Below, piece after piece: positions 37,447-49,066 of a stretch of DNA of 64,000 nucleotides. The first letter of the stretch is position 1. The number at the start of each line of letters is the position of its first letter. Source of the DNA: Dysgonomonas sp. BGC7 (GTDB lineage Bacteria > Bacteroidota > Bacteroidia > Bacteroidales > Dysgonomonadaceae); the NCBI RefSeq assembly GCF_001261735.1, contig NZ_CVRP01000017.1, forward strand, positions 1-64,000. The letters are read 5' to 3'. The translations under genes and the position numbers were made by a program. The notes under the pieces were generated by a model. It had not been told where the DNA came from, searched no databases, and saw only the letters and a list, made by a program, of their open reading frames with translations.

Positions 37447-38220
37447 TTATTTGCTAAGTGCCTCTTTTAATGCAGCTACTGCCTCTTTTATGCCGGCACT
37501 TTCTTTTAGTAATGTTATAAATTTACTTCCTATAATGGCTCCGCTGGCATTTGCCTGAGCGGCTTCCAATGTGGCCTTGTTAGATATGCCGAACCCTATA
37601 AGGCGAGGATTGCGAAGGTTCTTTTCGTTTATGCGGCGAAAGTATTCCTGCTTTTGCTCATCAAAGCTTTTTTGTGCGCCTGTTGTAGCGGCCGAAGATA
37701 CCATATAGATAAAACTGTCGGTATGTTCATCTATAAGCCTGATGCGTTCGTCTGAAGTCTCAGGTGTTATCAGCATTACTATTTTTACATCGTACCTGTC
37801 AGCTATAGGCTTATATTCTTTTATATAGTCATCGAATGGCAGGTCGGGGATAATAGCTCCGTCTATGCCGATTTCCTTACATTGCTTACAAAAGTTATCG
37901 AATCCGTATTGCATTATCGGATTCAGATAGCCCATCATTATAAGCGGAATGTTCACTTCTTTGCGTATGTCTTTTAACTGATCGAATAAGGTTTTCAGTG
38001 TCATACCATTGCGTAGAGCAATTGTTCCACTGTCCTGAATTGTTGGGCCGTCTGCCATCGGATCTGAGAATGGTATGCCTACTTCTATCAAGTCGATACC
38101 GTTTGTTTCCAGTTCTTTAATGATTGCAGGAGTATCGTCCAACTGAGGAAACCCCGCAGTGAAATAAATAGAAAGTATATTTTCGTTCTTTTTTTCAAAT
38201 AATTGCTTAATCCTGTTCAT
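37447..38220 (-). CDS. trpA: tryptophan synthase alpha chain
   Basis: A 257-residue TIM barrel that splits indole-3-glycerol phosphate and passes indole to TrpB. The catalytic Glu and Asp are in [17 protein letters not shown], and phosphate-binding GFGIS and GAIIGSKF are intact. It is the last gene of the trp operon, and its first 14 bases overlap the end of trpF. No U-rich hairpin is visible after the stop. Confidence 0.96.
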
Positions 38221-38833
38221 CTTTTATTTGTTTTATAAATTGTTTCAATAATTCAATATCTTTTACTCCCGGCTCAGTTTCAAATTTGCTATTGAGGTCT
38301 AGCCCATACAACAGCGGGTGTTTGATTTCTCTTATTCTTTCAGCATCTTCTGCCGATATTCCACCGCTTAAGAAAAAAGGAGTATTTCCTTTATATTCGT
38401 TAAGTATTTCCCAATCGAATTTCAGCCCCGAACCTCCATGCTGCGGTGTCTTGGTATCGAACAGAAAATATCCCCACAACCCTTCGTATGCTTTGGTTTG
38501 TTCTATATCCGAAATGTCTGCTATACTGAATGCTTTTATTATAGGCAATGTCTCATTCAGCTCTTTGCAAAATGAGGGAGATTCGTTTCCATGCAACTGA
38601 ATAAGGTCAAGTCCATATTCATTGACTTTTTCCAGAATAAAATCTCTTTCGGCATTCACAAATACACCGACTCGCTCTATATACCGAGGCAAAACACTGA
38701 GATCGGACAAAGTCAGCTTTTCGACATAGCGGGGCGATTTCTGATAGAATATCATACCCATAAAATCTATAGGTAGTTGAGCTAATTGGCTGATGTTGTC
38801 GGGCGATTTCATCCCGCAAACTTTTATCTTCAT
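38207..38833 (-). CDS. trpF: phosphoribosylanthranilate isomerase
   Basis: A 208-residue (beta-alpha)8 enzyme converting PRA to CdRP. The N-terminal [11 protein letters not shown] supplies the catalytic Cys, DLIQLHGNE is conserved, the catalytic Asp is in FLFDT, and [10 protein letters not shown] binds phosphate. It overlaps trpC by 4 bases (ATGA type) and trpA by 14, so the three are translationally coupled. It is separate from trpC, not fused as in enterobacteria. Confidence 0.95.
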
Positions 38834-39612
38834 TGTAGCTGTCCTATAAATTCCTCTAACGCCTTGCCCGGATTGGATGTTTTCATGAAATTTTCGCCCA
38901 TAAGGAAACCTCGATATCCTACTTGCTGTAATTGTTTCACTGTTTCGGGTTTGGATATTCCGCTTTCCGATATTTTCACAAATTCGTTTGGTATCTTATC
39001 CGCTAAATCGAACGATACCTGTATGTCTGTAACAAAAGTACCTAGATTGCGGTTGTTTACGCCTACTACATCTACTTTGTCGTTTATGTGTTCCAATTCT
39101 TTTTCGTTGTGAATTTCTAAAAGAATATCGAGTCCCAATTCTTTTGCTTTAGAGGAAAGAAGGATGGTTTCTTTTATCGACAGAGCCGAAGCGATAAGTA
39201 ATATGGCACTTGCCCCAACAGATTTTGCCTGATAGAGTTGATACTCGTCCACTACAAAATCTTTTCTTAGCAAAGGAGTTTTTGTCAGTTCCTTAGCTCT
39301 TACCAAGTCTGCTAAGTTTCCACCAAAAAAGTCCATATCTGTAAGCACTGAAATGGCACTTGCACCATTTTGTGAATATGATGGGATAACGTCTTCTATC
39401 TTTGCATTTTTAAATATCCAGTCGCGTGAGGGTGACCGCCTCTTAAATTCTGCAATAATACCTGTAGAGGAGTTGATCAATGCTTGTTTGAATGAAGCGA
39501 CTTGTTTGTCGTATGATATATTTTCCGCTAATGCTTTGATGGAAATTTCTGCTTTTTGCTTTTCTACTTCTATCTTTTTATTAGCAATGATTTTATCTAA
39601 AATAGTAGACAT
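38830..39612 (-). CDS. trpC: indole-3-glycerol phosphate synthase
   Basis: A 260-residue TIM-barrel enzyme that closes the indole ring. IIAEFKRRSPSRDWI carries the catalytic Lys, LLRKDFVVDEYQ the second Lys, and VGVNNRNLGTF and SESGI follow at the usual places. It starts 16 bases after the MFS gene, so the MFS insertion separates it from trpD. Confidence 0.96.
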   Translation of the reverse strand: MSTILDKIIANKKIEVEKQKAEISIKALAENISYDKQVASFKQALINSSTGIIAEFKRRSPSRDWIFKNAKIEDVIPSYSQNGASAISVLTDMDFFGGNLADLVRAKELTKTPLLRKDFVVDEYQLYQAKSVGASAILLIASALSIKETILLSSKAKELGLDILLEIHNEKELEHINDKVDVVGVNNRNLGTFVTDIQVSFDLADKIPNEFVKISESGISKPETVKQLQQVGYRGFLMGENFMKTSNPGKALEEFIGQLQ

Positions 39613-39628
39613 TTTTATATTTTATTTT

Positions 39629-40789
39629 TTAATCTCTTTTCAATACTTTTATCATAGATGCAAGTACAACTATACATATCCCGAATAGTCCGATGAGGGC
39701 ATAGGAATATCTGAGGTTGGTAACGCTCGAAATATAACCTATCAATGGAGGTCCCATAAGGAATCCTAAAAAACTGACACTGGACACTATGGTAAGTGCT
39801 ATACTTGTCGGTATTTTCGTCTTTTGTCCGGCTACGCTGTATATTGTAGGTACAATACCTGCCGTACCCAGACCGATGATCATGAACGCAATAATAGTAG
39901 TGACAAAGTGCGGCAGAGCTACAGCAGTGAAGAGCCCTACTGCAATAAGTGTTCCTCCTGTTTGTAAAACACGCTTTCTACCCCATTTCTGTGTTGCTTT
40001 GTCTATCAGGAAACGACCGGTTGCCATTGTAACCATATAGGCGGCTAATCCGATAGGTGCTATGTTTTTTTGAGTGCCTACTACATCTATAAGATAGAGT
40101 CCGCTCCAGTCGGACATTGCTCCTTCTGCAGCCATTCCGCAAAATGCAACTGTGCCGAGAAGAAACAAAAATGTTTCGGGCTTGTTCTTTTTCTTTGCGG
40201 CAATGTCGGCAGGGTCTTTTTCTTTTTTCGGATCGGCTTGCAGGTATGGTTTGTTTATGATGAGCGTAATAAGAACAATAAGCCCGATGATTCCGAAATG
40301 GAGAACAGGACGCATATGTAGTGTCGACATTAATAGACCTATTGCGGCACCTGTCAGTCCGGCGAAACTCCATCCACCATGAAAAGAGGCCATGATGGGC
40401 TTGTGGTACATGTTTTCTATTGTTACAGCCTGTGTATTGATGGAAATGTTACAGAAATTTCCGAAAAAACCGAAAATAATCAGGCTCAAGATCAGTGCGT
40501 ATTCGCTGGCTGAAACTCCTACAAGCAAAAGAGCCAATACATATCCTATGAGGGCAAATGGAAATATCTTTTTACTTCCTATTTTTGATATAATCAGGCC
40601 CGATATTGTCATACCACATATCTGCCCGATAGGAATCATCAGAAGGATAGTTCCCCAAGCTGCATCGCCCAGCCCAAGCGATGTTTTTATGTCGGGTATG
40701 CGGCTCGCCCAGCTCGAAAAGCAGATTCCGGTACAGAAGTACAGGCAAAATATAGCAAGTCGGGCACGTTCTTTAGAAGTTGAATCCAT
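39629..40789 (-). CDS. MFS transporter inside the trp operon
   Basis: 386 residues with about 12 transmembrane helices and a hydrophilic loop near the centre (about 190-210, KKEKDPADIAAKKKNKPE). The first-loop MFS motif is altered to SKIGSKKIFPF. The overall pattern (FCLYFCTGICFSSWASRIPDIK) is that of the YbjJ/FucP-like group. The substrate is unknown. Its position suggests an aromatic compound or intermediate, which is inference. The start at 40789 is chosen because it leaves a 4-base gap to the preceding stop, although an ATG at 40807 is also in frame. Confidence 0.82.
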   Translation of the reverse strand: MDSTSKERARLAIFCLYFCTGICFSSWASRIPDIKTSLGLGDAAWGTILLMIPIGQICGMTISGLIISKIGSKKIFPFALIGYVLALLLVGVSASEYALILSLIIFGFFGNFCNISINTQAVTIENMYHKPIMASFHGGWSFAGLTGAAIGLLMSTLHMRPVLHFGIIGLIVLITLIINKPYLQADPKKEKDPADIAAKKKNKPETFLFLLGTVAFCGMAAEGAMSDWSGLYLIDVVGTQKNIAPIGLAAYMVTMATGRFLIDKATQKWGRKRVLQTGGTLIAVGLFTAVALPHFVTTIIAFMIIGLGTAGIVPTIYSVAGQKTKIPTSIALTIVSSVSFLGFLMGPPLIGYISSVTNLRYSYALIGLFGICIVVLASMIKVLKRD

Positions 40790-40793
40790 TTTA

Positions 40794-41366
40794 TTATTTC
40801 TGAGCAATAATTTCTATTTTATTCATCCATTTTTCTCTTTGTTCGGCCGTGGAGTTTTTTATTACTGCAAAGTAGGTAGTACGTATGTTTTTAATTCCAC
40901 AAAATGCGCCAATATCTTTTCGTATCATTTTTCCTCCAATATCTGTCACTATCCATTTGTAGTACCACACAGGAGAATCCATTGTACTGATAATTTCGGA
41001 CGTTTTCCCTGTTAGTAATTTCTTCGGGAAAGGAGACTTTTCCTGATACTCGAACGTAAAGCCCGGAAGAAAAACTCTTTCTATAAATCCTTTAAGCAAT
41101 GCGGGAGGAGATGCCCACCATGTAGGATATATCCATACTATGTGTTCTGCCCATTGCAGTTTATCCCATGCCTCGATAAGATCCGGCTCCAATTCTGTAC
41201 GCTTACGATACCCGTACATAAGAATAGGATTGAATTGCATTTCGGAAAGGATAATTTCTTTTACCTCGTTCCCTGCTTTCAGGCTCCCTTTCTTGTAACG
41301 GTTATGTAAAGCGAAGCAAAAGCACTCTTTGTCGGGATGGCCATTTATTATAAGTACTTTTTTCAT
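40794..41366 (-). CDS. flavodoxin-fold NAD(P)H-quinone reductase family protein
   Basis: 190 residues of the NQO/KefF/MdaB-type family. KKVLIINGHPDKECFCFAL is the FMN-phosphate loop, IVWIYPTWWASPPALLKGFIERVFLPGFTFEY is the central flavin-binding signature, and the C-terminus carries the conserved FGCIK-like segment as FCGIKNIRTTYF. It would reduce quinones with NAD(P)H in the cytosol. It is tucked between the AroQ-like gene (1-base gap) and the MFS gene. Its link to Trp metabolism is unknown. Confidence 0.85.
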   Translation of the reverse strand: MKKVLIINGHPDKECFCFALHNRYKKGSLKAGNEVKEIILSEMQFNPILMYGYRKRTELEPDLIEAWDKLQWAEHIVWIYPTWWASPPALLKGFIERVFLPGFTFEYQEKSPFPKKLLTGKTSEIISTMDSPVWYYKWIVTDIGGKMIRKDIGAFCGIKNIRTTYFAVIKNSTAEQREKWMNKIEIIAQK

Positions 41367-41367
41367 A

Positions 41368-41682
41368 TTAGTAGTATGATTCTTTTATTGCTTTGTATCG
41401 TGTATCAAAAGTAATCAATTCTTCTTCAGTAAAGGCGTTAATCATTGTTCTATACACTTTTTCTGTTATAGATGGATTGAGTCCTAAATCTGCGGACAAT
41501 ACCTTTACTTTATCTATGACCGCATCAACACGTTGTAGAGATGTAACGTCATCAACAGAGTTTTTAAACTGTGCTGCCTGAGATACAAACAGGCTTCGTT
41601 TAGCTATTAGTTTTACTAACTCTTCATCTATCCGATCTATATTTTGACGAACTTCGTCTAACGAATTGCAACGCTTGATCAT
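41368..41682 (-). CDS. AroQ-type chorismate mutase-like protein
   Basis: A 104-residue all-helical protein. The first helix LDEVRQNIDRIDEELVKLIAKRSLFVSQAAQFK is the AroQ pattern, with the active-site arginines and lysine in place, and the C-terminal helix is longer. It is either a chorismate mutase (chorismate to prephenate) or a PchB-like isochorismate pyruvate lyase. The short length and VRQNIDRID start fit the PchB-like subgroup. It starts 12 bases after trpD and ends 1 base before the reductase gene. Confidence 0.8.
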   Translation of the reverse strand: MIKRCNSLDEVRQNIDRIDEELVKLIAKRSLFVSQAAQFKNSVDDVTSLQRVDAVIDKVKVLSADLGLNPSITEKVYRTMINAFTEEELITFDTRYKAIKESYY

Positions 41683-41694
41683 AATCTATTCCCT

Positions 41695-42693
41695 TTATGA
41701 ATTTAACTCCAAAAACTTCTTGAATGTTTCCCTTGTTCGTCCGCTTTCAATAGATTCTCTAGCCTGCGCAATTGCTTCCTCGAAAGAAATAGTAGAGTCT
41801 ATTGTCTGAATAGCTGTTGCAGCATTAGCTATTACAGCATTCTTTTGTGCTGTTGTAGCTGTGTTGTTGATAACATTATCAAATATTTTGGATGCTTCTT
41901 CGGGCGAAGTCCCTCCGTCGAGTTCCTTTTCGGTGCAGCGGCTAAGACCTATCTGCTCGGGAGAATATATTTTCTCTCCGAATTTATTGATTAACTTAAA
42001 GTCTCCGGTTAACGATATTTCGTCATATCCGTCGAGGCTGTGAACAATGGAGTAATCTACATCTGTTTGCTGATACATATAGAAGTATAGACGAGCCATT
42101 TTCAGGTTAAAAACTCCCAGTACAGTCCGTTTCGGTTTAATGGGGTTTACTACCGGTCCCAGCATATTGAAGAAAGTTCTTACACCTAACGCTTTTCGAA
42201 CGGGAGCAACTACTTTCAACGCATTGTTGAATAATGGAGCGTGCATATAGGCTATGTTTATTTTATCCAACGATTCTTCCAGTTTACTGACATCAGAAGT
42301 AAACTTTACACCATGCTGTTCCATTACATTAGATGCCCCACTGACAGAAGTGGCTCCGTAGTTACCATGTTTAGCCACTTTATATCCTGCGCTGGCCACA
42401 ACAAAACAAGAAAGTGTAGATATATTGAATGTGTTTTTGTTATCGCCTCCTGTTCCTACAATATCAATAGGATTGTAAGCAGCCAGTGCATCCACATTTG
42501 CCCGCAAGTCGAGGAGTGCATCCGAAAATCCCAGAAATTCGTCTACACTGATACTCCGCATGAGAAATACACTGATAAATGCAGCTATTTCAGATTCATT
42601 ATATCCTCCTGCGGCCATTTTGGTCAGAATTTCCTTTGCTTCCGTACGGTTGAGGTATTGATGTTCGAATAGTCTGTTTAGTATTTGTTTCAT
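41695..42693 (-). CDS. trpD: anthranilate phosphoribosyltransferase
   Basis: A 332-residue enzyme joining anthranilate and PRPP. The signatures are VGTGGDNKNTFNIST (PRPP/metal site), KHGNYGATSVSGASNVME and the anthranilate site region with RTFFNMLGPVVNP. It is a stand-alone TrpD, not fused to TrpG. ATG 42693 is chosen; the frame extends upstream only to a TTG. A hairpin lies in the 50-base gap to trpB2. Confidence 0.96.
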   Translation of the reverse strand: MKQILNRLFEHQYLNRTEAKEILTKMAAGGYNESEIAAFISVFLMRSISVDEFLGFSDALLDLRANVDALAAYNPIDIVGTGGDNKNTFNISTLSCFVVASAGYKVAKHGNYGATSVSGASNVMEQHGVKFTSDVSKLEESLDKINIAYMHAPLFNNALKVVAPVRKALGVRTFFNMLGPVVNPIKPKRTVLGVFNLKMARLYFYMYQQTDVDYSIVHSLDGYDEISLTGDFKLINKFGEKIYSPEQIGLSRCTEKELDGGTSPEEASKIFDNVINNTATTAQKNAVIANAATAIQTIDSTISFEEAIAQARESIESGRTRETFKKFLELNS

Positions 42694-42704
42694 AAGCCCC
42701 TCCA

Positions 42705-42724
42705 AACCTCCCCGAAGGGAGGTT
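42705..42724 (-). repeat. UUCG-loop hairpin between trpB2 and trpD
   Basis: On the minus strand AACCTCCC-TTCG-GGGAGGTT: a perfect 8-bp stem capped by a C(UUCG)G tetraloop, an exceptionally stable RNA fold. No U tract follows, so it is not a terminator. GC-rich CCTCCCC/GGGGAGG elements like this recur in Bacteroidetes genomes. Confidence 0.6.
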
Positions 42725-42743
42725 GTGTTTATATTAATTAAAA

Positions 42744-44099
42744 TTACACCAGTTTTTCCAATGTATCTGTTGTTTTAGCGATCTCTTCGTCGGTCAGATT
42801 GTAGTTCTGCATTTTACCGGTAAGGAATTGATCGTAAGCAGTCATGTCTATTAATCCATGTCCCGACAGATTGAATAAGATTGTTTTCTGTACGCCTTCT
42901 TCTTTTGCTTTTTTTGCTTCGCGTATGGCTGAGGCTATAGCATGAGTAGATTCGGGTGCAGGTATAATACCTTCTGTATTGGCAAATAATTTACCTGCCT
43001 CGAAAGTTTCCAACTGAGGGATATCCTGTACTTCTACATATCCATCCCGGTGCAATTGGCTGACAATTGTTCCAGCTCCGTGATAACGCAATCCACCTGC
43101 ATGTATATCGGCTGGTTGGAAATCGTGCCCCAGTGTGTACATCGGCAATAATGGGGTAAGACCGACAGTGTCACCATAGTCGTATTCAAATTTTCCTCTC
43201 GACAGTTTAGGTGTACTTGCTGGCTCGGAAGCTATAATGCGTACTTCTTTTCCGTCTGTCAGTTTGTGGCGTAAGAAAGGGAAGCTAATACCAGAGAAAT
43301 TAGATCCTCCACCAAAGCAGCCGATTACAATATCAGGATACTCGCCCGCCATCTCCATTTGTTTTTCACTTTCCAGTCCTATTATAGTCTGGTGCAGAAT
43401 GACATGGTTGAGTACACTGCCCAGAGTATAGCGTGTATTTTCTCCTTTGATGGCTGCCTCTACTGCTTCTGATATAGCAATACCCAGACTCCCCGAGTTA
43501 TTCGGATCTTTTGCTAATATTGCTCTTCCCGATTCTGTCAGGTTACTTGGCGAAGGTATCACGTTTGCACCCCATGTTTGCATCATCATTCGGCGATATG
43601 GCTTTTGGTTGTAACTTACTTTTACCATATATACTTCGAGATCGAGCCCGAAGATACTGGAAGCAAAGCTCAATGCTGCACCCCACTGTCCGGCTCCTGT
43701 TTCAGTAGTAAGGCGTTTTATGCCTTGCATCTTATTATAGTATGCCTGTGGCAGAGCCGAGTTCAACTTGTGAGAGCCGATAGGACTTACTCCTTCATTT
43801 TTAAAATAGATATGAGCAGGAGTATCAAGCGCTTTTTCCAGACCTGTAGCTCTTACCAGTGGAGTTGGTCTCCATATTTTGTACAATTCTCTTACTTCAT
43901 CGGGAATTTCTACCCAACGCTCTTGTGTAAGTTCTTGTTTTATTAATTCTTTAGCAAATATGGGTTCCAGATCGGCAGGGTTTAATACTTCTTTTGTTTT
44001 AGGATTTAGCGGTGGCAAAGGTTTATTCTTCATGTCCGCTACAATATTATACCAGCTTCTGGGAATGTCGTTTTCGCTTAAAAAGATTTTTTTACTCAT
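42744..44099 (-). CDS. trpB2: TrpB2-type tryptophan synthase beta chain
   Basis: A 451-residue PLP enzyme of the TrpB2 group, longer than canonical TrpB by an N-terminal extension and internal loops. The PLP lysine is in [11 protein letters not shown], the glycine-rich phosphate loop is [11 protein letters not shown], and the segment [19 protein letters not shown] is typical of TrpB2. TrpB2 proteins often act without TrpA, rescuing indole or using serine directly. It sits between trpG (18-base gap) and trpD in the same operon as canonical trpB. Confidence 0.9.
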
Positions 44100-44117
44100 G
44101 ATTTTTGTTAGATTTAT

Positions 44118-44684
44118 TTAGTTATTTAAGAAATTTCTGATAATTGTTTCCCCTGCAGGAGTAAGTACCGATTCGGGGTGGAATTGCACTCCATGAATAT
44201 CGAACGTTTTGTGTTTCAGTGCCATTATCTGTCCGTTGTTGTCTATGGCTGTGACACTAATGCAATCAGGTAATTTATCGTTACTTACAATCCAAGAGTG
44301 ATAACGCCCTACTTCAAGTTCGCTGCCTAAAGTGTCGAAGATATAATCGGGTTCGATGACCTTGATTTGTGTGGCTACCCCATGATACACATCTTCCAGA
44401 TTGGTAAGTGTTGCCCCGAAAGCTTCTCCTATTGCCTGATGCCCTAGGCAGACACCAAGTATAGGTTTCTTTCCTGCATATTCCTTTATCAGTGGCAATA
44501 AAAGACCAGCTTCGGACGGAATACCCGGGCCGGGAGATAGGATGATCTTATCATATTTTGCAACGTCTTCCAACGCTATTTTGTCATTTCTGATTACATC
44601 CACATCTTTAAATCCCAATTCTTTTACCAGATGTACAAGGTTGTATGTGAAGGAGTCGTAATTGTCGAATATTAGTATTTTCAT
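44118..44684 (-). CDS. trpG: anthranilate synthase glutamine amidotransferase
   Basis: A 188-residue class I glutaminase giving ammonia to TrpE. IFDNYDSFTYNLVHL is the N-terminal mark, LSPGPGIPSEAG follows, the nucleophile is Cys in GVCLGHQAIGEAFG, and the His-Glu pair is in GVQFHPESVLTPAG. It starts 5 bases after trpE. It may also serve p-aminobenzoate synthesis, as no pabA is seen here. Confidence 0.96.
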   Translation of the reverse strand: MKILIFDNYDSFTYNLVHLVKELGFKDVDVIRNDKIALEDVAKYDKIILSPGPGIPSEAGLLLPLIKEYAGKKPILGVCLGHQAIGEAFGATLTNLEDVYHGVATQIKVIEPDYIFDTLGSELEVGRYHSWIVSNDKLPDCISVTAIDNNGQIMALKHKTFDIHGVQFHPESVLTPAGETIIRNFLNN

Positions 44685-44689
44685 TGCTC

Positions 44690-46099
44690 TTAATTCTTTA
44701 GTTGTTCAGCAAATTTCACAGCTTTAGTCAATGCACCTAATTTATTTTTTACCTCCAGAATTTCTGTTTCGGGGTTCGATTTAGAAACGATTCCTCCTCC
44801 TGCTTGATAGTAGAGAGTATTGTTGCGGCTAAGGAAAGTCCGTATGGTAATAGCCTGATTCAGGTCTCCGTTGAACCCAATATACCCTATGCAGCCTCCA
44901 TAAACGCCACGCATTTGTTTTTCTATGTCGCGTATCAGTTGCATAGCTCTCACTTTGGGCGCTCCGGAGAGTGTGCCGGCAGGAAAAGTATCGGCAAACA
45001 CTTTCATATTGTTCCTGTCTTTATCAACAATACCGCTAACCCGTGACACCAAATGGATGACGTGTGAATAGAATTGTACATTCTTATAAAATTCTACTTT
45101 TACATCGTCGCAATTGCGACTGAGGTCGTTGCGGGCCAAATCGACCAACATTACATGCTCGGCATTTTCTTTTTCGTCTTTTAGTAGCTGTTCGGATAAT
45201 TTGCGGTCTTTTTCATCGTCTCCTGTACGGAAATATGTACCTGCAATAGGGTCTATGTATGCTTTACCTTTAGTTATCTTACAGTGAGTTTCGGGCGATG
45301 AGCCAAATATGCGGTACGAACCGAAATCGAAATAGAAAAGATAGGGTGAAGGATTGATGGAACGGAGCGACCGATAGACCTTAAAGTCGTCTCCTGCAAA
45401 TTTTTGAGTGAAACATCTGGATAAAACGATCTGGAATACATCGCCACGTTTGCAGTGTGCTATTCCTTTTTCTATCATTTGGTGATGTTCTTCGTCTGTT
45501 ATCATAGACTGTTCTGTGCCTATGGTTTCGAAGTTGTAAGAGGCTATATTGTTATTGTTCAGTATTCCTTCCAGTTCGTGTGTTTTTTCACTTGTGCCTT
45601 CCACTACATTTTCAACGATAGTCAATTCGTTTTTCAGATGGTTGATGACAAGGATGAAGCGATATAGGATATAGTAAAATTCAGGAATATCTGAGTTGTT
45701 GAGTTTTGTATTCACAGGGTCTACATCTTCGAAGTAGCGAATGGCATCGTAAGATGTGTAGCCCAAAAATCCGTTTATATTTGTTTTGTTTTCGCCCTGA
45801 ACATCGAACTGATTGATAAAATCGTGAAATTTATCTGTAAGGTTCTGGTGAGCATATAATGTTTCCTGTTTTACTGTATTGTCAGGATATGTATAAGTTA
45901 TCTGATCGTTGTCGACTCTGAAACGTGCTATCGGGCTGATACCTATAAACGAATAACTGTTTTCGCCTCCATGATAATCGGAGCTTTCCAAGAGGGCTGA
46001 TTCCGGATATACATCTCTTACTTTGAGATAGATGCCTACAGGTGTTTGCAAGTCGGCAAGAAGATTTTTTGTTTTTACGTTTATTTTAAACTTTTCCAT
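44690..46099 (-). CDS. trpE: anthranilate synthase component I
   Basis: A 469-residue chorismate-using enzyme. The N-terminal domain contains the LLESSDYHGGENSYSFIG segment, whose LLES matches the feedback-site motif that binds tryptophan. The catalytic domain has GDVFQIVLSR, PSPYLFYFDFG, GTLSGAPKVRAM and YGGCIGYIGF. It uses TrpG as ammonia source. It starts 24 bases after trpB, so trpB, not trpE, is the first enzyme gene of the operon. Confidence 0.96.
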   Translation of the reverse strand: MEKFKINVKTKNLLADLQTPVGIYLKVRDVYPESALLESSDYHGGENSYSFIGISPIARFRVDNDQITYTYPDNTVKQETLYAHQNLTDKFHDFINQFDVQGENKTNINGFLGYTSYDAIRYFEDVDPVNTKLNNSDIPEFYYILYRFILVINHLKNELTIVENVVEGTSEKTHELEGILNNNNIASYNFETIGTEQSMITDEEHHQMIEKGIAHCKRGDVFQIVLSRCFTQKFAGDDFKVYRSLRSINPSPYLFYFDFGSYRIFGSSPETHCKITKGKAYIDPIAGTYFRTGDDEKDRKLSEQLLKDEKENAEHVMLVDLARNDLSRNCDDVKVEFYKNVQFYSHVIHLVSRVSGIVDKDRNNMKVFADTFPAGTLSGAPKVRAMQLIRDIEKQMRGVYGGCIGYIGFNGDLNQAITIRTFLSRNNTLYYQAGGGIVSKSNPETEILEVKNKLGALTKAVKFAEQLKN

Positions 46100-46123: not shown

Positions 46124-47308
46124 TTAATGATTAAAAGCGTTGATATAAGTTTCCATATCTTTATCACCTCGTCCCGAAAGGCATAATACAACAACAGCTC
46201 CTTTTCGGAAATTTACTTTTGGCAACGCCCCTAAAGCGTGTGCCGATTCTATAGCCGGAATTATTCCTTCCAGTTTTGTCAGTTCGAAGGCTGCATCCAT
46301 TGCTTCATCGTCCGTTACGGCTAAAACCTGAGATCTTCCTGTTTTGGCAAGATATGCATGCATAGGGCCTATTCCGGGATAATCTAATCCTGCCGAAATA
46401 GAGTATGGCTCTTCTATTTGTCCATCTTCCGATTGCATAATCAGAGTTTTGCTTCCATGAATAATACCTAATTTGCCAAGATGTATAGTGGCTGCCGATT
46501 CTCCCGAATTCAATCCTTTTCCGGCGGCTTCTGCCAGTATAATTTCTACGTCGGGTTCGTCTATAAAGTGGTAAATGGTTCCTGCGGCATTACTTCCTCC
46601 TCCTACACATGCCATTACGTAGTCGGGGGTTTCTGTTCCTTCTTTCTCCAGCAACTGCTTGCGTATCTCTTCGCTGATAACAGATTGCAGGCGGGCTACC
46701 ATGTCAGGGTAGGGGTGAGGCCCTACTGTAGATCCTATAACGTAGTAAGTGTTAGATGGGTTACTACACCAGTCGCGTATGGCTTCGTTTGTAGCATCTT
46801 TTAGTGTCATATTTCCACTGGTGACAGGTACAACTGTGGCTCCCAACATTTCCATTTTTTGTACATTCAGCTTTTGGCGTTCTACGTCCGTTTTGCCCAT
46901 GTATACAATACATTCCATATTCATAAGGGCACAGACAGTTGCAGTTGCCACACCATGCTGTCCGGCTCCTGTTTCGGCTATGATGCGGGTTTTTCCCATA
47001 CGGCGTGCAAGTAGTATTTGTCCTATTGCGTTATTTATCTTGTGCGAGCCTGTATGGTTGAGGTCTTCACGTTTCAGGTATATTTTGCAGCCATATTTTT
47101 CAGAAAGTCTTTTAGCTAAATAAAGGGGGGAAGGACGTCCTACATAGTCCTTTAGTAAGGCATCGTATTCTTCTCTGAAAGATGGTTCATTAATAATTTC
47201 CAGATAAGACTTCTTCAATATTTCTACATTGTCGTACAGAATTTCAGGAATGTATGCACCTCCAAATTCTCCATAAAAACCATTTGTATCAACTGTGAAT
47301 TTTTCCAT
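46124..47308 (-). CDS. trpB: tryptophan synthase beta chain (canonical TrpB1)
   Basis: A 394-residue PLP enzyme making Trp from indole and serine in the TrpA2B2 complex. The PLP lysine is in [23 protein letters not shown] lies in the COMM region, [10 protein letters not shown] is the phosphate loop, and the C-terminal CLSGRGDKD is present. It is first in the operon, directly after the attenuator, so its expression is the first to respond to charged tRNA-Trp. Confidence 0.97.
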
Positions 47309-47338: not shown

Positions 47339-47371
47339 AAAAAAAGCCTGTCGTGAGTTACGACAGGCTTT
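47339..47371 (-). terminator. trp attenuator terminator
   Basis: On the minus strand a perfect 12-bp stem (47371-47360 with 47354-47343) with a 5-base loop is followed by seven Us. It lies between the leader peptide stop and trpB. The loop-proximal half CTCACGAC (47357-47350) is complementary to GTCGTGAG (47426-47419) at the leader stop codon, which gives an exclusive antiterminator pairing. Confidence 0.9.
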
Positions 47372-47419
47372 GTATTTTATCTTATAATTTTTCTACCTAT
47401 AAATACATACCGGTTTTGC

Positions 47420-47479
47420 TCACGACTTTTTGAGTTGTAAGAGCCACCACCAAAATGTATTTGTCAATAGAAAGTTCAT
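47420..47479 (-). CDS. trpL: trp leader peptide
   Basis: A 19-codon open frame, MNFLLTNTFWWWLLQLKKS, with three consecutive Trp codons (47452-47444) and TGA at 47422-47420. It begins about 20 bases after the -7 box. The stop overlaps GTCGTGAG, the strand that can pair with the terminator. A ribosome stalled on Trp codons would leave this strand free (antitermination), while one reaching the stop would mask it (termination). This is the arrangement of the classical proteobacterial trp attenuator. Confidence 0.9.
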   Translation of the reverse strand: MNFLLTNTFWWWLLQLKKS

Positions 47480-47499
47480 TTTTTATTCTTTTGTTTCCA

Positions 47500-47530
47500 C
47501 AAAGATAAATCTAATTTGTAAAAAAGCAAT
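47500..47530 (-). promoter_or_regulatory. trp operon promoter
   Basis: On the minus strand ATTG (47530-47527), a 19-base spacer, then TATCTTTG (47507-47500), matching the Bacteroidales promoter pattern. Transcription would start about 13 bases ahead of the leader ATG. The sulfatase gene ends 28 bases upstream, with no terminator between. Confidence 0.75.
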
Positions 47531-47557: not shown

Positions 47558-49066
47558 TTATTTTTTCTTTTCTGCCGTTTCAGGGTAGTTTGGACTGGTT
47601 AATATGTTTTTTTCAAATATATTGAGTTTTCCATCCTTAACGTATGGCTCACCTCTTTCGCTAAGGTGTTTTGTCATATAATCCCTCCATTGCAACAACT
47701 CTTTGTTGTATTTCTTGTTTTTTGCGAGATTTTTTGTTTCGCCCGGATCACTCTTCAGGTCAAATAACTGTTCTTCTCCTGTTCTGAAAAACCAAATATA
47801 TTTTATTTTCCCATCGGTAAGTCCTGCCCAGTAATTGTTATGCTCGTAGATTGCAGCATGTTCCATATCTATATAGGGTCGCCATGATGAGTTTGGAGCT
47901 TTTAGTAATGGCAGAACTGATTTGCCATCCATATCTTCGGGTTGTTTTATGTGTGCAGCTTCGAGGAAAGTAGGCAATATATCTCGTAATTCGACTACTT
48001 GCTCCAATCTGGCTTTTTTGCTTGCTGAATAATTGGAATCTCTGGGTGCTTTGACAATGAAAGGGATATGAGAAGAACCTTCATAGGCATAGGTTTTGCG
48101 CCAATGGTAATGATCTCCCAGCATATCACCATGATCGGATACGAATATAATGATAGAATTGTCATACAATCCTTTTTCTTTCAGTGTTTCAATTATTCGG
48201 CCTATCTGATCATCTACAAATGTTATCGCACCGTAATAATAGCGTCGTGACTGAATGGCATGTTCTTCTCCAAAATTGCCGAAAGGCGCATCTTTTGTGT
48301 TTTTTCTGTCGGCAAAAGAACTGCACCAGTCTCCAATATGTGGGTGTATGACTTCCTTGTCTTTATACATGTCTGCATAGCGCTGAGGCGGATCGTAAGG
48401 ACTGTGGGGGCGGGCAAATGATATCTTTAAAAATAAGGGTTTGTCTAAATCGTAATTTTTGATGAAACGAATGGCTTCGTTTCCTGTCCATTGGGTAGGA
48501 TGGAGGTTTTCTTCCAGCACATATTGTGCTCCGGCATGCTCGTTCCAACCTATACCTGTGGCATCAGGATCTTTTCCCGGAGCTTCCATTGCAAACCATT
48601 GACGATAGTCGCTTACAAAGTCTTTGGACTCTACCCTTCCCGATTCGTCAAGGAATGTTCCATGAAATCCGTGTTTGTTTCGTTGAGGGGTATAGTGCAT
48701 TTTTCCGATTCCAAAGGTATAATAGCCCGCTTCTTTTAGCATTTGCGGCATTTCGTAAGGATACTTCTCTGCAACTTTATAATAACCCAGCATACCATGT
48801 TTCCAAGGAGAACAGCCCGTTAGTAGCCCTGCGCGTGCAGGTGTACTACTTGGAGTAGAGGAGTAGGCGTGCATAAAAGTGGTTCCATCTTCGGCTATGG
48901 CATCAATGTTTGGAGTGTGTATGAAAGGATTGCCCATTGTTCCTACACAGTCGAATCGTTGTTGATCGGTCATTATAAGAATAAGGTTGGGCTTTTGCTT
49001 TTCCTGACCAGTCATATATAGAGAAATGCCTGTTAGAGCTAAAGGGAGTAAACCGTGTACTTTCAT
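47558..49066 (-). CDS. secreted Ser-type sulfatase
   Basis: 502 residues with an N-terminal signal sequence (short core, cleavage near residue 20). The sulfatase domain has the metal site LILIMTDQQRFD and the maturation motif STPARAGLLTG, in which S74 would be converted to formylglycine, so this is a Ser-type enzyme. FVSDHGDMLGDH gives further metal ligands, and the C-terminal ELFDLKSDPGETKNLA is typical. It desulfates a glycan or ester, substrate unknown. The maturase (anSME) needed is not in the window. No susCD pair adjoins. Confidence 0.9.
   Translation of the reverse strand: MKVHGLLPLALTGISLYMTGQEKQKPNLILIMTDQQRFDCVGTMGNPFIHTPNIDAIAEDGTTFMHAYSSTPSSTPARAGLLTGCSPWKHGMLGYYKVAEKYPYEMPQMLKEAGYYTFGIGKMHYTPQRNKHGFHGTFLDESGRVESKDFVSDYRQWFAMEAPGKDPDATGIGWNEHAGAQYVLEENLHPTQWTGNEAIRFIKNYDLDKPLFLKISFARPHSPYDPPQRYADMYKDKEVIHPHIGDWCSSFADRKNTKDAPFGNFGEEHAIQSRRYYYGAITFVDDQIGRIIETLKEKGLYDNSIIIFVSDHGDMLGDHYHWRKTYAYEGSSHIPFIVKAPRDSNYSASKKARLEQVVELRDILPTFLEAAHIKQPEDMDGKSVLPLLKAPNSSWRPYIDMEHAAIYEHNNYWAGLTDGKIKYIWFFRTGEEQLFDLKSDPGETKNLAKNKKYNKELLQWRDYMTKHLSERGEPYVKDGKLNIFEKNILTSPNYPETAEKKK

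Follow-up and report, generated by a model that had tools for sequence, protein, structure and literature searches.

The region 5' of the trp operon in the window, by which we mean the whole 64,000-nt stretch of DNA that was analysed, very probably carries a ribosome-mediated transcription attenuator of the trp operon (Bacteroid-trp) that works as a three-state RNA switch. Attenuation by a ribosome stalling on Trp codons, as proposed in the initial annotation, was the best reading of the match to the Rfam family RF01692, the conserved leader with adjacent Trp codons (WW), the covariation and the computed folds. From the observed parts, their conservation and covariation and the computed folds, we infer stalling, kinetic capture, termination and a response to Trp. 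The locus is a further member of a catalogued leader family and is ordinary in itself; the sense of discovery in the initial annotation was misplaced, because the family is already in Rfam as RF01692 and was published in 2010. The worthwhile addition, which is comparatively supported, would be the antiterminator and its unusual side: the proposed capture by strand 2 of the terminator loop and 3' arm (2:4) goes beyond the curated RF01692 model. The elements of the switch and the genes behind it are as follows.

47500 to 47529, minus strand: Bacteroidetes-type promoter, TTG at 47529-47527, 19 nt, then TATCTTTG at 47507-47500 (from the sequence)
47420 to 47479, minus strand: trpL leader ORF of 19 codons, MNFLLTNTFWWWLLQLKKS, with a TGA stop (sequence and comparison)
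47479 to 47477, minus strand: start codon ATG of the leader (sequence)
47455 to 47462, minus strand: strand 1, AAATACAT, shortly before the Trp codons, in the outer protector helix (RF01692 structure, fold, moderate alignment support)
47444 to 47452, minus strand: three Trp codons, TGGTGGTGG, the putative sensor (sequence)
47422 to 47420, minus strand: stop codon TGA of the leader, within GTCGTGAG (sequence)
47419 to 47426, minus strand: strand 2, GTCGTGAG, the putative antiterminator strand with the stop codon (comparison, swap test, folding)
47401 to 47408, minus strand: ATGTATTT, which pairs with strand 1 as the 3' side of the protector hairpin (RF01692 structure, fold, alignment)
47343 to 47371, minus strand: intrinsic terminator hairpin, strands 3:4, 12 bp, loop AACTC (terminator scan, fold, alignment)
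47350 to 47357, minus strand: CTCACGAC, terminator loop and upper 3' arm, putative target of strand 2 (comparison, swap test, folding)
47339 to 47345, minus strand: U tract of seven T, overlapping the last three stem bases (sequence)
46124 to 47308, minus strand: trpB, first structural gene (TIGR00263, 582 bits)
37447 to 46099, minus strand: rest of the operon, in order trpE, trpG, a TrpB-like gene, trpD, a chorismate-mutase-like gene, an NAD(P)H-oxidoreductase-like gene, a membrane-transporter-like ORF, trpC, trpF and trpA (NCBIfam scan; the transporter-like ORF, outside that scan, was named from its look)

When the whole window was searched against Rfam, RF01692 'Bacteroid-trp' matched at 47499-47362 with 60.6 bits against a cut-off of 49 (E 6.2e-5), and the alignment covered the model from end to end (1-131 of 131) and placed the Trp codons within the leader hairpin. 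The score exceeds the gathering score, the host belongs to the Bacteroidota and trp genes lie downstream; the window thus shares with the family the phylum, the position 5' of trp genes and a leader hairpin matched along the full model. The structure line of RF01692 consists of the leader hairpin only, and the curated model stops inside the terminator 5' arm, without the full terminator and without the antiterminator. Weinberg et al. 2010 list the Bacteroid-trp motif in their table 1 (PMC2864571). According to a 2019 paper, its structure resembles that of the E. coli trp leader, and it occurs 5' of the trp operon in Flavobacterium psychrophilum (PMC6414381). From the transcriptome of this species, strong indications were reported that leader-peptide attenuators precede amino-acid operons (PMC9723704), and these attenuators, as described there, share with the window the phylum and the proposed mechanism.

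The initial annotation had named trpB, not trpE, as the first controlled gene, and the trpB start at 47308, together with the TIGR00263 match listed above, agrees with this. The gene order suggests that trpB to trpA form one transcript. Upstream of the leader lies a sulfatase-like ORF (47558-49066, minus strand). Among the matches listed, Dysgonomonas sp. Marseille-P4677 had a trpB 91% identical to that of the window; judged by this gene, the genome appears close to Dysgonomonas. The second, TrpB-like gene between trpG and trpD (42744-44099, minus strand) matched NF009057 with 726 bits and TIGR01415 with 640 bits, and the chorismate-mutase-like and NAD(P)H-oxidoreductase-like genes after trpD were both below the NCBIfam cut-offs.

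The region 5' of trpB was compared across 81 records, namely 80 loci found with trpB (the best of at least 585 matches) and the window. A short ORF with adjacent Trp codons was found at most 450 nt 5' of trpB in 77 of the 81 records, and of the four records without such a leader one is cut by the contig end. An ATG-started leader bearing TGGTGG was missing from six records: L066 lies at a contig end, L067 and L072 have a leader only with a GTG or TTG start, and L100, L111 and L131 have none. Two further records (L107 and L125) have a leader without a terminator. The remaining 73 records have both and gave 71 distinct rows, which were aligned. The check suggested by the initial annotation, conservation of the Trp codons and of the competing stems in relatives, therefore came out in its favour, the codons being conserved and the stems showing compensatory changes. 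For the wider counts, the trpB-relative set was pooled with loci hit by the covariance models described below and exact duplicates were removed, which gave 208 leaders among which close relatives remain. Some of the 148 model-hit leaders are probably chance ORFs and were kept (for example L215, L226, L230 and L234). Because the loci were partly hand-chosen from model hits (13 + 60 regions) and are otherwise the best matches of the searches, the leader counts below are no random sample. The first gene is commonly trpB in these 208 leaders (trpB 139, trpE 64), a set that was partly gathered with trpB.

The leader of the window agrees letter for letter with its earlier description, a 19-codon frame on the minus strand with Trp-Trp-Trp and a stop codon inside GTCGTGAG. 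It was the sole ATG-started ORF in the window with 8-40 codons, one of the listed single-residue runs and a terminator within 140 nt. Three consecutive Trp codons occur in 165 of the 208 leaders and not in the remaining 43; these counts depend on TGGTGG having been the search criterion. The 164-nt leader fold was 6.65 sd below shuffled sequences, and 0 of 200 shuffles were as stable. The 'consensus promoter' of the initial annotation held as a Bacteroidetes-type promoter only, since a plain sigma-70 scan listed no minus-strand site at 47500-47530; TTG and TATCTTTG follow what we take to be the consensus of that type. The box TANNTTTG was found at most 80 nt 5' of the leader ATG in 164 of the 208 leaders, compared with 9.3 +/- 2.6 after shuffling.

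The terminator and U tract were likewise as annotated (stem 47371-47343, seven T at 47345-47339). The terminator alone is unremarkable, because the 2 kb searched, this site included, contained 3 terminator-like sites compared with 2.0 +/- 1.3 in shuffles. In the 71 aligned sequences, 99.1% of the terminator cells were paired, and double changes occurred at 11 of 12 pairs (7.3 +/- 1.2 in shuffles), exceeding all but 1 of 500 shuffles. An intrinsic terminator with compensatory changes thus precedes the first gene.

It had been claimed that the terminator arm and loop are complementary to the stop region, and CTCACGAC is indeed the exact reverse complement of GTCGTGAG. Over the 71 rows this pairing held in 91.7% of cells, compared with at most 54.9% when one side was slid by 1-3 columns, and 26 cells had double changes (10.3 +/- 2.3 in shuffles). 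Two of the five measures were not above shuffles, namely pairs with double changes (2 vs 2.0) and pair types (7 vs 7.9), and alignment pair 53-156 was mismatched in 18 of 71 rows. The telling pair is that between the middle base of the stop codon and a loop base unused by the terminator stem. The stop codon lies in the element in 58 of the 71 rows, where TAA occurs with loop T in 37, TGA with C in 19 and TAA with A in 2; where the stop lies elsewhere (13 rows), the aligned base always pairs (A-T 7, G-C 6). On the trpB tree (69 rows; L097 and L108 were dropped), stop base and loop base changed together three times, two of them on starred branches. These changes are consistent with covariation, and being only three events they are too few for significance. 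The frame runs on in L085, L115, L117, L121 and L129, so that the stop lies well beyond the antiterminator element, and the element is kept. In a swap test over 197 distinct leaders, duplexes of the stop region with the leader's own loop and 3' arm had a mean energy of -11.45 kcal/mol vs -9.38 kcal/mol with those of others (0 of 2000 permutations). After thinning to one row per distinct loop start (109 rows), which reduces relatedness and does not remove it, the values were -10.74 and -8.79 (0 of 5000); the strongest duplexes include some outside the stop-codon element.

The weak 1:2 pairing noted earlier within the leader is present in the predicted fold, but it is only the inner part of a longer hairpin formed by AAATACAT and ATGTATTT. 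The alignment gives this protector helix moderate support: 68.4% of cells were paired vs up to 63.1% when slid, and 21 cells had double changes vs 10.9 in shuffles. Pairs with double changes (5 vs 4.9) and pair types (14 vs 12.9) were not clearly above shuffles in this alignment, which is partly out of register at the helix. Folding supports the helix better, as the region before the Trp codons paired with the region after the stop with a probability above 0.5 in 148 of 208 leaders, and in 20 of 208 when the post-stop region was shuffled. A third helix, between GTATTT (47406-47401) and AAATAC just before the terminator, was tried and rejected (46.9% of cells paired vs 52.9% when slid by -2). 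It occurs in the forced antiterminator fold of the window, where it would extend the antiterminator, and visual inspection shows it in Dysgonomonas and close relatives only.

The proposed switch was followed by partial folding, in which the emerging RNA was folded and the part covered by the ribosome was left out, with an assumed footprint length. In the window, when the RNA was out to CTCACGAC and the ribosome stood at Trp codon 1 or 3, the antiterminator reached a probability of 1.00 and the terminator one of 0.00. For the same RNA, a ribosome that was absent or had reached the stop codon gave 0.99 for the terminator and 0.00 for the antiterminator. Once another four bases were out, the stalled antiterminator had fallen to 0.15 (stall at Trp 1) or 0.83 (Trp 3), and a further three bases took it to 0.00 (Trp 1) or 0.01 (Trp 3). 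For the complete transcript in the stalled state, the terminator was favoured by 6.5 kcal/mol. Antitermination must therefore be kinetic, since the terminator wins at the final equilibrium even when the ribosome is stalled.

The same computation, applied to the 208 leaders with six 3'-arm bases made, gave a stalled antiterminator above 0.5 in 139 of them, and in 1 when strand 2 was shuffled. Without a ribosome the terminator exceeded 0.5 in 178 of 208, and with the ribosome at the stop codon in 208 of 208, a result given nearly by construction because the covered RNA was left out. Against the scheme, the stalled antiterminator was below 0.2 in 46 leaders and the stalled terminator above 0.5 in 30, and in 17 strand 2 paired with the 3' arm at more than 0.5 in the ribosome-free state (each of 208). 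Several of the 46 low values (for example L085, L115, L117 and L121) arose because the leader frame extends beyond the element, so that the folded segment, fixed on the stop codon, missed it. By computation, a fold that excludes the terminator thus depends on ribosome position; in the stalled state it lasts during part of transcript growth and is lost at the final equilibrium.

Based on these facts, the three states may be envisaged as follows. When Trp is scarce, the ribosome would stall on the three Trp codons and cover strand 1, leaving strand 2 (GTCGTGAG) free; strand 2 would then pair with CTCACGAC as the polymerase makes the loop and 3' arm, before the terminator closes, and the antiterminator would let transcription pass into trpB and the genes behind it. 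In this step the loop bases would offer a free landing site, from which strand 2 could invade the 3' arm. When Trp is plentiful, a ribosome at the stop codon within strand 2 would hide that strand; with the terminator then formed, transcription would end at the U tract. Without a ribosome, strand 2 would be buried in the long leader hairpin, made of strand 1 with ATGTATTT and an inner helix, and the terminator would form again.

The pairing side distinguishes this scheme from the classical attenuator. The E. coli trp leader uses 2:3 pairing, between its strands 2 and 3. The window resembles that attenuator in its tandem Trp codons, its mutually exclusive folds and a terminator before the first gene, and differs in having three Trp codons instead of two, in trpB as the first gene, and in a strand 2 predicted to take the loop and 3' arm (2:4) and not the 5' arm. 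That the upstream strand pairs with the terminator 5' arm on stalling, as in E. coli, is improbable here. The 5' arm can pair upstream with a probability above 0.5 in 85 of 208 stalled leaders, but shuffled upstream RNA gave 91 (mean 0.46 for the real vs 0.44 for the shuffled RNA), whereas the 3' arm did so in 126 of 208 leaders vs 13 after the upstream RNA had been shuffled. The window gave values of 0.25 for 2:3-like and 0.83 for 2:4-like pairing, and strand 2 is unable to pair with the terminator 5' arm because it is a near copy of that arm. In the open-access literature, no description was found of a strand 2 that captures the terminator loop and 3' arm.

A Trp-binding riboswitch or a TRAP-like protein site with an incidental peptide, for example a relative of the RF04312 trpB motif, is still less credible. 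RF04312 did match weakly at the same place, but with 26.5 bits it remained below its cut-off of 59. As described in PMC11109978, that motif sometimes lies 5' of trpB and has a second hairpin resembling an intrinsic terminator, as in the window, whereas its hosts are Firmicutes and Fusobacteria; its authors state that they could not exclude a classic attenuator for their motif. An incidental peptide also fits poorly with the WW leaders 5' of trpB in the records compared above and with an antiterminator strand that lies on the stop codon and covaries with the loop, and by eye the 71-row alignment holds no other conserved block. A plain intergenic terminator with a chance short ORF can be practically dismissed: the hairpin lies between the sulfatase-like ORF and trpB and could serve that ORF too, and terminator-like sites are locally no more numerous than in shuffles, but the leader ORF, the promoter box and the competing strand are found again in other genera and at loci where trpE comes first.

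For the ribosome-stalling attenuator with 2:4 pairing, we lean slightly towards a design shared across the Bacteroidota. In such a design, a decoy of the terminator 5' arm placed on the leader stop would capture the loop as a toehold and then the 3' arm, the stop codon would act as the switch and coevolve with the loop, and leaders would also occur in tandem or as several separate copies per genome. RF01692 found members in 26 of 61 relatives and in 37 of 392 genomes drawn from the order (own genome included). A model that includes the terminator was built from the 71-row alignment; trained on members of the order and giving rough E-values, it found members in 148 of 392 genomes in the order and 67 of 392 in the phylum (own genome included), and among its weaker hits some are limited to the terminator part. 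The loci fetched from model hits numbered 158, of which 10 had no leader, three of these being partial hits in the own genome. A trp protein match lay at most 900 nt downstream in 147 of the 148 distinct leaders (trpB 79, trpE 64, trpC 2, trpD 1 and TrpB-like 1). Outside the order and within the same class, leaders such as MKTILNNTWWWNNLRQSS with the same GTCGTGA/TCACGAC pair were found in genomes that we take for Flavobacteriaceae; their first gene is trpE, unlike the trpB of the window.

The wider use of the analysis lies in the full switch, including the terminator and antiterminator left out of the Rfam model, with evidence over many genera. The scheme would imply that, in the leader, RNA polymerase does not outrun the first ribosome in Bacteroidota. 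This phylum mostly lacks Shine-Dalgarno sequences, and none was apparent by eye at the leader of the window. Such attenuators may make ribosome-polymerase coupling testable by a simple reporter.

In the own genome, the terminator-including model matched this leader with E 8e-23, the window being in the training set. Behind it came four hits with E 0.002 to 0.011, none of which reached model positions before 38; one of the four was this terminator read on the opposite strand. All remaining hits had E of at least 0.11. With RF01692, the three other matches in this genome (E 3.1 to 6.6) were all below the cut-off.

Several genomes carry more than one leader. Tandem attenuators were seen at L169 (genome G211) and L170 (G042), each with two complete Trp leaders with a terminator each before trpE. 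L172 (G200) has two leaders with a terminator found only after the first, and of the two model hits at L171 (G226) one has a TGGTGG leader. Genome G315 has separate Trp leaders before trpB, trpC and trpE (L175, L176 and L177), and G404 has two similar 30-codon Trp leaders, before trpC and before trpE (L173 and L174). Elsewhere in the window, two adjacent tRNA-Asn (GTT) genes lie at 2123-2304 on the minus strand.
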